Assembly (NCBI RefSeq): GCF_015207655.1 | Contig: NZ_JADEWN010000015.1 | Span: forward strand, 19,768-83,767 | Reading direction: 5' to 3' | DNA: 64,000 nt | Source of the DNA: Gloeocapsopsis crepidinum LEGE 06123 | GTDB lineage: Bacteria > Cyanobacteriota > Cyanobacteriia > Cyanobacteriales > Chroococcidiopsidaceae | Position numbers and translations under genes: made by a program | Part shown: positions 60,316-64,000 of the stretch, one piece after another | Layout of the letters: each line of letters opens with the position of its first letter | Position numbering within the stretch: position 1 is the first letter of the stretch | Notes under the pieces: model-generated | What the model saw: the letters and a program-made list of their open reading frames with translations, nothing else | The model's database searches: none | What the model was told of the DNA's origin: nothing

Positions 60316-61017
60316 CTATGCGGCATCGAGGGATAGCGTGTTACTAGATAATGTTCCATCTTCCATATGAACAATTCGATCTGCAATATCTAAAATCCGA
60401 TTGTCGTGAGTCACCATGAGGATGGTGCAACTCTGTTCTTGGGCTATCTGCTGCATTAGATTAACGACATTTCGCCCCGATTTACTGTCAAGCGCTGCTG
60501 TCGGTTCATCAGCGAGAACAATTTGAGGGTAACTTACCAAAGCACGAGTAATTGCTACTCGTTGTTTTTGCCCACCAGAGAGATTGTCAGGATAGTAGTG
60601 TAAGCAATCGCCCAATCCAACCTCTGCTAATATTTGAGCAGCTCGATGTTGCATTTTGGTGCGAGATAAATTGCCATGAACTTCTAAACCCATACACACA
60701 TTTTGGAGCGCTGTCAGACTGCAATGCAGATTATGCGCTTGAAAAATGTAGCCATTACGTCGGCGTGCTTGAACTAATTGCTGAGAAGTCGCTTGGCAAA
60801 GTTCTTGTCCCAATACTTTTAAACTGCCAGAGTGTGCCGATCGCAATCCTCCGACTAAAGTCAAAATCGTTGTTTTGCCTGAGCCAGAGGATCCGGTCAT
60901 AATCACAATTTCACCGGCAAAAATCTCTAGATTAATGTCGAATAGGACTTGCTTACGTAACTCACCTTCACCAAAGTAGTGATTGAGATGCTGAATATGA
61001 ATGACAGGTTGCTGCAT
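60316..61017 (-). CDS. devA: DevA-type ABC exporter ATPase
   Basis: 233 residues, MacB-like class: Walker A GSSGSGKTT, signature LSGGQKQRVAITRAL, Walker B IVLADEPTAALDS, and switch VTHDNRI. The header IHIQHLNHYFGEGELRKQVLFDINLEI is characteristic of DevA-like ATPases. It energises the DevB-DevC exporter, which in heterocyst-forming species exports glycolipids; here the substrate is unknown. Start at 61017; the frame extends to 61119, overlapping devC, but the added part is not conserved. 35-nt gap from devC. Confidence 0.9.
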   Translation of the reverse strand: MQQPVIHIQHLNHYFGEGELRKQVLFDINLEIFAGEIVIMTGSSGSGKTTILTLVGGLRSAHSGSLKVLGQELCQATSQQLVQARRRNGYIFQAHNLHCSLTALQNVCMGLEVHGNLSRTKMQHRAAQILAEVGLGDCLHYYPDNLSGGQKQRVAITRALVSYPQIVLADEPTAALDSKSGRNVVNLMQQIAQEQSCTILMVTHDNRILDIADRIVHMEDGTLSSNTLSLDAA

Positions 61018-61052
61018 GATGCTGATTGCGAGTAAATCAAGAATATTCAAAA

Positions 61053-62222
61053 TTAAAAAATGTCTGCTGGATCTGCAGAGCGCAATTGACGAGTCGCAAC
61101 GATTCCCGACAGACTGCACATGACAACAGTCAGAGTAAATACTAAAACCAACCGCAACAACAGCATATAAATTGGCAAAGCTCCCACCTGGCGTAGTAAG
61201 CTATAAAGACCTAAAGACACTCCAACACCAGGTATAAAACCGATAGCAGCGAGAATCAGTGCTTCTTCAAAGATTGCCCCCAATAAGTAGCGATCGCGGT
61301 AGCCCATTGCTTTAAAGGTGGCGTACTCGGCTAAGTGATCGTTGACGTCGGTAGAAAGGATTTGGTAAACAATGACAATCCCTACAATAAAACCAATCGT
61401 CGTTGCTAATCCAAAGACAAAAGCGATCGGCTGATTTTGGTCAATGTAAGCTTTTTCAAAATCTACAAACCCCTGCTTCGTCATAGCTTTAACATCTTGA
61501 GGCAAATACGCATTTAAATCCTCAACGACAGCTTCTGGATCAGATCCAGGTTGCACCTGAACTAATCCCAAGCTCACCTGTCCAGCTTGGCGACTAGGAA
61601 ACAGCCTCAGAAAACTTTGATCGCTCGTCAGCAAAATACCATCAGTTGTGAAGGATGCACCCAGTTCAAACAGTCCTGCTATGGTAATTGTGCGTCGTTC
61701 TATTTCTGTCGTGACTGTGCGTTTTTGCTCAACTTGGTCGATAACCCATTGGTAGTTACCTCGCGCAGCGCGATCAAACAAGACTGTATCTGGCAACTTG
61801 ATTTTATCTAAGCTTTGGTTAACCGCTGGCAGGTCAAATGCTTTCGTGTCAGGATTTACACCGACAACTAACATTGCAGTCTTTTGGCGAGTTTCAGGAT
61901 GTTTCCAGTCAATGAAATTGATGTACAAAGCTTGTGCTGATGCAACACCAGGTACGTCCATTGCTTGATAAAGTCGCCGTCGGGGAAAAGATAACAAATT
62001 TGTCAGTTGACGAGCTTGAGTACTAACTAACACAATGTCAGTTTGTAATTGGCGATGAGGTGCTGTATTACTGTCGTACAAACCATTAAGAATTCCCAGT
62101 TGCATGAACATCAGGATATCAGCAAAGGCAATGCCTCCGATTGAGACTAAAAGGCGTGTTTTGTTGTGACGCAGTTGAATCCAACCTAAAGGAGTTCTCC
62201 GGCGAAGTTGTTGAAGTATCAT
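61053..62222 (-). CDS. devC: DevC-type ABC exporter permease
   Basis: 389 residues, FtsX/MacB-like permease with four membrane helices: one near the N-terminus (LLVSIGGIAFADILMFMQLGIL), a large periplasmic domain, and three near the C-terminus (IGFIVGIVIVYQILSTDVNDHLAEYATFKAMGY, EALILAAIGFIPGVGVSLGLYSL, LVLVFTLTVVMCSLSGIVATRQL). Start ATG overlaps the devB stop as ATGA, so translation is coupled to devB. All parts appear intact. Confidence 0.92.
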   Translation of the reverse strand: MILQQLRRRTPLGWIQLRHNKTRLLVSIGGIAFADILMFMQLGILNGLYDSNTAPHRQLQTDIVLVSTQARQLTNLLSFPRRRLYQAMDVPGVASAQALYINFIDWKHPETRQKTAMLVVGVNPDTKAFDLPAVNQSLDKIKLPDTVLFDRAARGNYQWVIDQVEQKRTVTTEIERRTITIAGLFELGASFTTDGILLTSDQSFLRLFPSRQAGQVSLGLVQVQPGSDPEAVVEDLNAYLPQDVKAMTKQGFVDFEKAYIDQNQPIAFVFGLATTIGFIVGIVIVYQILSTDVNDHLAEYATFKAMGYRDRYLLGAIFEEALILAAIGFIPGVGVSLGLYSLLRQVGALPIYMLLLRLVLVFTLTVVMCSLSGIVATRQLRSADPADIF

Positions 62223-63440
62223 GTTTCAATCACTGTTTGAACTTGAAGGTTAGTGAAGTTAGCAACTTTTTGACTCGATGCTGCATCTAGCTGCACCTTT
62301 ACCTCGATAATTCTGCTGTCAATATTGTCTGAAGGGTCGCTGTTGATAACTTCTTGTCGCTGCACCTGCAAGCCAATGCTTTCTACAGTTCCATACAGTT
62401 CTGTATTGGGTAATGATTCGCTCGTTAGCTTCACCGACTGTCCGACTCGTACCTGATGAATATCACTTTGATAAACCTCTGCAACTGCATACATTTGCTC
62501 GGTTTGCCCAATTTCAGCAAGTCCTACTTCACTGGAAATGAGTTCGCCAGGACGGGCATGAATTTTGAAGATTCGACCAGATTGAGGAGTGCGGATATAA
62601 GCTTGATCTAAATTTTTCTCTGCTTGTTTGGCAGCGGCGATCGCCTGACTTACTCTTGCCTCGGCTGTCTGCACGTCAACTGGACGTACTTCGGCAATCT
62701 GTGCTAGTGTGGCACGCGCTGCAGCGACTTGCTCTTGAGTGGCTTTTGTAATCCGCTCTGAAGCCGCTTGTGCTTCCTGGAGTTGTTTTTGAGTCGTCGT
62801 CAAAGCTAACTGCTTGCGATCGCGTTCTGATGCTGAAATTGCTCCGTTTTGATAGAGAGATTTGTAACGCTGATACTCAGTCTGTGCATTTTCCACTTCT
62901 GCTGCTAGACGGGTAACTGTTGCTGTTTGAGCGTTCAAATTGCCGACTCTTTCAGCCTCTAAACGCGCAATCTCAAAACGCTGTGCTTGAATTTCGCCGC
63001 GCTTTGCTCCTGCTAGTACCTGCGCCAACTCAAATTGGGCAACTCGTACTTGCTCTTGTGCTTCTTGTAGTGCTGCTTGGAGGCGAGCTTCCTTACGGAA
63101 GAGCTTCGCTAACGCGGTTATCTAAAGTTGCAATTATTTGATTAACTTTGATTGGATCTCCTTCTTTCACAAGGAGTTGTTCTACGCGACTTCCTTCAGC
63201 TGATGTAGGAGCTGAAAGCTTGATGACTTCGCCTTCAGGCTCTAGCCGTCCCAAGGCAGTGATAGTTTTGATCTCAGGCTGCTTGACTAGAGGAGGTTGC
63301 AAATTCCTAGATTGAAATGATTGGAATTGCCAGTAAATTAGGGGTGTTAGACATCCAATAGCTAAAAGCACTGCAATTGATAGCCTAATAGCACGACGAA
63401 CAAGGGTTTTGGAAACTGCAATATCAGTAGATGTTGTCAT
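62219..63440 (-). pseudogene. devB: DevB-type membrane fusion protein gene, interrupted
   Basis: HlyD-like adaptor linking DevC to TolC. The first part (63440-63093) has the membrane helix (AIRLSIAVLLAIGCLTPLIYW) and first half of the lipoyl-like barrel (ALGRLEPEGEVIKLSAPTS) up to TLDNR, then stops at TAA. The second part (up to ~63085, open to 62219) continues RLQAALQEAQEQVRVAQFELAQVLAGAKRGEI through the coiled coil and beta-barrel to the end. Between them, 63086-63112 is a ~27-nt palindromic block that shifts the frame and brings a stop codon. Apart from this the two halves are well conserved, so the break is recent. Confidence 0.85.
63086..63112. repeat. Small palindromic element inserted in devB
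   Basis: About 27 nt with an imperfect palindrome: CTTCC-TTAC-GGAAG at the centre, with outer AGCTT and AGAGCTTCGC parts. Flanks GGCG and CGCGG would rebuild a HIP1 octamer (GGCGATCGCGG) if it were removed, with net gain 25 nt. It resembles the very small dispersed repeats reported in cyanobacterial genomes. Confidence 0.7.
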
Positions 63441-63503: not shown

Positions 63504-63530
63504 CAATCAATTGAATTATTCAATTGATTG
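63504..63530. promoter_or_regulatory. Perfect 12-3-12 palindrome, candidate TetR operator
   Basis: CAATCAATTGAA (63504-63515), spacer TTA, TTCAATTGATTG (63519-63530): perfect inverted repeat in the intergenic space between divergent devB and the tetR-like gene. Further ATTGATT half-sites follow to about 63570. Position and symmetry fit an operator for a dimeric TetR repressor controlling devBCA and itself. Confidence 0.7.
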
Positions 63531-63613
63531 ATTGATTTTAATGTGAGTCAGTCGATTGATTTTGTCAATGAACTACAATTAAGTTGTGCTGGTAATAGTA
63601 AAATGACATCATA

Positions 63614-63913
63614 ATGGTTCAACCAAAATCTCCTCAACCCAATGTGCAGCAGCGTGGTGAGGATGCTCGTCATCGTTTAATTGATGCGGGAATTGAAGTT
63701 TTTGGCATCTCTGGCTTTGAAGCAGCGAGTACCCGACATATTGCAGACAAAGCAGGCGTTAATCTTGCTGCTATCCCCTACTATTTTGGTAGCAAAGAGG
63801 GACTGTACCGTGCGGTTGCAGAGCATATCGCTAATGATGATGAACCAGCAGCCTCTACAGCCCGACGCATTGACTCACATCTTGCACCTATCAGGAAAAC
63901 CACTAATACATGA
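63614..63913 (+). pseudogene. TetR-family regulator, truncated
   Basis: 99 residues where ~200-230 are usual. The DNA-binding domain is intact: ARHRLIDAGIEVFGISGFEAASTRHIADKAGVNLAAIPYYFGSKEGLYRAVAEHIAND, with the helix-turn-helix in the middle. After about residue 75 the sequence no longer looks like a TetR ligand-binding domain and stops at TGA 63911-63913. No other frame restores it within the remaining 87 nt of the window. Possibly a deletion or frameshift; a short DNA-binding-only form is the alternative. Start ATG 63614. Confidence 0.7.
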
Positions 63914-64000
63914 ATAAGTAGTGTAAGAAAGTGACAGCAGAAGCGGAAATTCGCTTTTGTGGCAGAGAGTAATTCAGAAAACTTGATTTGTAGAGAAATT

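Follow-up and report, generated by a model that had tools for sequence, protein, structure and literature searches.

A hairpin repeat within a HIP1 site divides devB in Gloeocapsopsis crepidinum LEGE 06123: a probable mobile insertion since the split from a sister species

The stretch of DNA analysed here, called the window below, comprises 64,000 nucleotides and forms the last part of an 83,767-base contig in a 5.67-Mb draft genome. Its minus strand carries devB, devC and devA, recognised by matches to the profiles TIGR02971, TIGR01185 and TIGR02982, respectively (Table 1). Together with HIP1, these DevBCA genes identify the DNA as cyanobacterial. The devB gene lies in two pieces, each of which hits TIGR02971, in agreement with a preliminary description of this DNA that took both halves of the protein to be conserved. 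The curated cut-off of this DevB profile is 129 bits; it is passed by the 3' piece, which scores 264.4 bits over the stretch 62219-63040, while the 5' piece alone scores below it. No stop codons were found along the reading frame of the 3' piece, which forms a 269-aa ORF when counted from a TTG codon. A protein database entry, P0004, corresponds to this 269-aa piece and holds 2 member sequences from 2 contigs. Between devB and a divergent tetR-type regulator gene lies an AT-rich inverted repeat, CAATCAATTGAATTATTCAATTGATTG (window 63504-63531). It differs in the same-genus genome G001, introduced below, and could be a putative operator of the regulator.

Table 1. Features of the devB locus, with window position, strand and basis of assignment
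devA, open	60316..61119	-	TIGR02982, 357 bits
devC, open	61053..62222	-	TIGR01185, 474 bits
devB 3' piece, open, in another frame than the 5' piece	62219..63085	-	TIGR02971, profile 67-325
HIP1 right remnant, TCGC	63083..63086	-	GCGATCGC intact in G001
Inserted element TTAGCGAAGCTCTTCCGTAAGGAAGC, 26 nt, covering the A of HIP1, net +25 nt	63087..63112	-	alignment to the empty site of G001
Variable stem-loop CTTCC-GTAA-GGAAG, 5-bp stem, 4-nt loop	63088..63101	-	covarying stems in the family
TAA stop in the loop, ending the 5' devB frame	63093..63095	-	ORF 63440-63093
devB 5' piece, 115 aa	63093..63440	-	TIGR02971, profile 1-51, 67.5 bits
Constant family head TTAGCGAAGC, containing GCGAAGC	63103..63112	-	shared by the family in 21 of the 23 genomes chosen
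HIP1 left remnant, GCG	63113..63115	-	GCGATCGC intact in G001
Divergent tetR-type regulator gene, 5' part, cut at 63873	63614..63873	+	TetR_N
Terminal part of an IS-like sequence, present in several copies, that interrupts tetR; the contig ends here	63874..64000		eight other places in the genome

On the coding strand, positions 63115-63083 read GCG, TTAGCGAAGCTCTTCCGTAAGGAAGC and TCGC and lie between the conserved halves of devB, with GATAACC preceding GCG and TCCAAGCA downstream of TCGCC. HIP1 octamers are frequent in this DNA, numbering 72 in the 64-kb window and making up about 1% of its bases. Sixty relatives were searched with the gene region, which led to G001, a genome of the same genus with 93% identity. 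An 80-kb stretch of G001 matches window positions 3804-63873 in 13 collinear blocks (60 kb compared). At the devB site, G001 reads GATAACC GCGATCGC CTTCAAGCA in a single open frame, with HIP1 intact and devB running through as one gene of 397 aa. The alignment to a close relative, which the preliminary description had proposed as a check, thus yielded an empty HIP1 allele and bears out its view that devB was broken at a former HIP1 site. The junction it had predicted, GGCGATCGCGG, obtained by replacing 63086-63112 with AT, is the sequence of G001 exactly, and the alignment agrees with a net gain of 25 nt and a stop codon, the TAA at 63095-63093. Fifteen indels of at least 6 nt were listed in the aligned blocks of window 3804-63873, and the devB insert alone was seen to interrupt HIP1.

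Comparison with more distant homologues indicates the direction of change. HIP1 occupies the same R-D-R codons in 10 DevB-like loci, one of them G001, out of 14 fetched loci where the motif was found. Of the best 120 of 5,356 protein hits, 119 are homologues that cover the site and, by eye, have no extra residues there; the one left over is the 3' fragment encoded in the window itself. The empty HIP1 in G001, its recurrence in these loci and the lack of extra residues in the homologues together make the insert the derived state. Because the 3' piece of devB carries no further lesion, the insert also looks young.

By sequence identity, the inserted block is not a repeat. With up to 3 mismatches allowed, its own genome and two others of the genus contained the 27-mer once, in the window. 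At up to 2 mismatches, the window copy was the sole hit among 388 genomes of the order, and no donor was found. A repeat defined by sequence identity was rejected on these grounds, the 27-mer being single-copy and absent from the 387 other genomes. The genome search suggested in the preliminary description thus turned up no second copy, but its proposal of a small mobile repeat is supported in a refined form: the block itself is not repeated, yet a family architecture and an empty HIP1 in two relatives speak for it. Since the 27-mer is unrepeated, membership of a family rests on architecture and target, and with the window copy as the sole match, the family was sought through its head instead. 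The 13-mer GCGTTAGCGAAGC has 9 occurrences in the window's genome, and the reversed pattern has 0; most of the other eight copies lie within different repeats. A repeat rich in GGCGAAGCCCAGCGGGACGAAGTCC-like units follows GCGTTAGCGAAGC in three same-genus genomes (L059-L064, L067-L071, L073, L075-L078).

The family pattern, defined as the head, a spacer of 8-20 nt and then TCGC, was searched in 23 genomes chosen from two families. It gave 95 matches, 46 of them distinct, in 21 of the 23, and the reversed pattern gave 0 matches in all 23. In its common form the element follows GCG with TTAGCGAAGC, then a stem-loop and one A or C before TCGC. Of the 46 distinct spacers, 40 can pair into a stem of 3 bp or longer, compared with a mean of 11.0 and a maximum of 22 in 1000 shuffles, and 29 of these 40 stem-forming spacers have GNA or GNNA loops. 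Covariation between the arms was assessed on 18 rows, made up of 17 distinct 26-mers and one added row; one row is not family-like. The inner stem pairs covary, with 15 both-sided cells versus 5.9 in shuffled rows, and 81.9% of cells are paired versus 60.2%, values reached in 0 of 500 shuffles in each case, although these figures are not probabilities because related copies share ancestry. The signal was gone when the partner was slid. Two of the five measures fail to exceed the shuffles in the 18 rows: pairs changed on both sides (2 versus 2.6) and further pair types (5 versus 4.7). The outer stem pair fails in 9 of the 18. Folding energy was left out as evidence; the window insert alone folds modestly (z -1.5, 19 of 200 shuffles as good), and four other strands, including the window's opposite strand, gave z from -0.5 to -2.6. 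The head-plus-hairpin family is not named in the literature searched, whose coverage mostly leaves out subscription papers.

Copy length bears on the effect on genes. If HIP1 is taken as 8 nt long, the net gain of the 95 matches is 21 nt (75 matches), 22 (3), 23 (3), 24 (8), 25 (3), 27 (2) or 28 nt (1), and 85 of the 95 net lengths are multiples of three. Most family matches, adding 21 or 24 nt, could thus keep a gene's frame, whereas the 25 nt of the window copy cause a frameshift. Its nearest relatives belong to a longer form that ends in GCTCGC, has a GAA loop and adds a net 24 nt, with arms CCTCC/GGAGG (G264, G387), CCTCT/AGAGG (G343) and CCTGC/GCAGG (G387); these have a 3-nt loop, against GTAA in the window copy. 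The arms of the window copy itself, CTTCC/GGAAG, occur with a GAA loop in records of Nostoc desertorum, N. indistinguendum and Phormidium tenue. This 24-nt variant is flanked by nearly the same sequence in the two Nostoc MAGs and in Phormidium tenue (L170, L171, L172), a likeness that suggests either shared inheritance or transfer. A search for an RNA gene with Rfam at gathering thresholds returned nothing at the Nostoc and Phormidium copies.

Two further copies illustrate both outcomes. The one additional family copy in the window's genome (C128:66400; L105 near 1500) adds 21 nt inside an ORF and lengthens it by 7 residues relative to G001, where GTTATCGC stands. A copy in G382 (C1:399512; L108 near 1500) adds 23 nt, which puts a frameshift into an ORF uninterrupted in G326, likely a second gene break by this family. 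From these two copies, frame-keeping members occur within genes and off-length members break them. This pattern bears on whether the loop in devB is counted correctly. If the assembly had a wrong base count there, the real insert would keep the frame, and DevB would merely gain a few residues; the 24-nt length and 3-nt loop of the nearest relatives, the frame-keeping C128 copy and the 3' piece still free of stops would all fit. However, two other 25-nt matches, in G362 and G387, also have 4-nt loops, and the tetR gene next door is cut too, as fits a decaying locus. We regard a miscount as improbable, while granting it more weight than any other alternative considered here.

With the frame shifted, the beginning of DevB, including its N-terminal anchor, is cut off from the remainder of the protein, and the DevBCA exporter would for that reason be left without its membrane-fusion subunit. 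We infer loss of DevB function. The tetR-type gene, which is whole in G001 (221 aa), carries the second damage at this locus. The IS-like sequence that cuts it is present at eight other places of the window's genome with different left flanks; it was not found in G001 or G002, and no transposase was identified in it. With the devB insert and the tetR cut, the locus has two separate lesions, an arrangement that, as read from the sequence, is consistent with a module being lost.

It is quite unlikely that devB still works, through a restart in the 3' piece or a ribosomal frameshift across the hairpin. The downstream piece is open, and its nucleotide differences from G001 are 18 synonymous versus 8 non-synonymous, with devC and devA open as well. 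A restart piece would nevertheless be missing the anchor at the N-terminus, and it is within the insert that the stop codon lies. The 5' piece differs from G001 by 10 synonymous versus 17 non-synonymous changes, plus a small gap. In addition, devB-like places elsewhere in the genome, C59 (497 query bases) and C57 (796 query bases), could cover the need; a third, C43, resembles devB in two short pieces.

No mobiliser or vehicle stood out in the material searched. Y1_Tnp genes occur in all 8 genomes searched, and, judged by eye, their copy numbers and those of the family do not go together; the family head was within about 1.5 kb of 0 of the 8 Y1-transposase loci inspected. Three variants had no exact match among viral contigs, and plasmids gave no hit to the window copy at E up to 1. 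This absence of a vehicle, together with the single-copy status of the insert at up to 3 mismatches, would fit if a one-off copying error, such as a template switch, had made a hairpin unrelated to any mobile family. We think this very unlikely: the 10-nt head, the hairpin layout and the flanks recur in 21 of the 23 chosen genomes with the reversed pattern at 0, and the arms of the window copy are also found in Nostoc and Phormidium. Instead, we infer movement of the insert in one piece.

The second filled and empty pair, G382 and G326, clarifies the target. The two are 98% identical outside the gap, and 23 nt were added at an intact HIP1 with no duplication. The gap fits GCG^ATCGC and is ambiguous by one base. 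The window and G001 match this pattern, except that a C takes the place of the A of HIP1. In all, seven family copies have an unfilled relative (the window, L065, L108, L111, L121, L122 and L126), and for only two of the seven, the window and L108, does that relative have an intact HIP1. L122 and L126 face HIP1 with 1 and 2 differences, respectively, and L065 faces it with 2 (GTTATCGC), while L111 and L121 face diverged sequence. That the insert is old and was lost from G001 by exact deletion is scarcely credible: the GTTATCGC of G001 at the C128 site is a possible leftover of a 21-nt deletion, but exact deletion at devB must restore a perfect HIP1, which is there in most of the fetched DevB-like loci, and the homologue P0002 runs through the site without an insert. 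Insertion into HIP1 remains our reading of the devB allele.

The site of joining resembles that of a known element. SDR5, a small dispersed repeat of cyanobacteria, is described in a passage of PMC4390886 as inserting between nucleotides 3 and 4 of HIP1, a finding traced there to Elhai et al. 2008 (Genome Res. 18:1484). Very small size and this target are shared by the window copy and by the G382/G326 pair; a difference in the window copy is the C that takes the place of HIP1's A. On the strength of this shared target, we call the head-plus-hairpin family SDR5-like rather than SDR5. The insert is also a short imperfect palindrome, as are REP/REPIN elements, which work with RAYT transposases and, according to PMC3116915 and PMC3733652, are reported also in cyanobacteria. 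PMC3733652 defines REPs by a tetranucleotide, GTAG or CGTC, that closes the palindrome on one side. This tag is absent from both strands of the 26-nt insert. The window insert also differs from REP/REPIN elements in targeting HIP1, and the family copies do not flank Y1 transposase genes at the 8 inspected loci. Rickettsia palindromic elements (RPEs) lie inside protein genes, often with frame-keeping lengths; they are longer than the window insert and come from another phylum. The insert is tied to HIP1, whereas RPEs are not known to be. RPEs are mentioned in PMC3733652.

Taken together, these comparisons leave us with good confidence that the hairpin repeat in the HIP1 of devB is likely a mobile insertion, acquired once the sister species had diverged, and that it likely abolishes DevB. 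How such an element would travel can be sketched more tentatively. Movement as single-stranded DNA is suggested by arms that stay complementary though their letters vary, by loops that are mostly GNA or GNNA and by GCGAAGC within the head. PMC4686876 reports GCGAAGC as a very stable mini-hairpin in DNA, which melts at 78 C and belongs to a type with GNA or GNNA loops. The modest folding of single copies and the lack of the family head at the 8 Y1 loci speak against such movement. In the scheme we have in mind, the element would move as a hairpin in single-stranded DNA, and some enzyme would join it after the third base of HIP1. The window copy has a 4-nt loop, against 3 nt in its nearest relatives, and with its 25 nt shifts the frame. 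A possible generalisation, which we hold as a conjecture, is a HIP1-targeted mini-element of cyanobacteria with a constant GCGAAGC mini-hairpin head, followed by another hairpin in which the two arms are rewritten together and the loop is mostly GNA or GNNA. In its usual 21 or 24 nt it would add 7 or 8 residues to a protein, and its off-length copies would knock genes out.

Elements of this kind are already known; what is added here is a clean allele pair and the description of a head that stays constant next to a hairpin that covaries. Filled and empty alleles of one site are now available in sister species with junctions at base-pair resolution, and they concern elements too small to encode anything. 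They link HIP1, a motif of disputed purpose, with an insertion into a gene that has a name. Across the family, the covariation of the arms and the pattern of lengths would predict a single-stranded hairpin intermediate.
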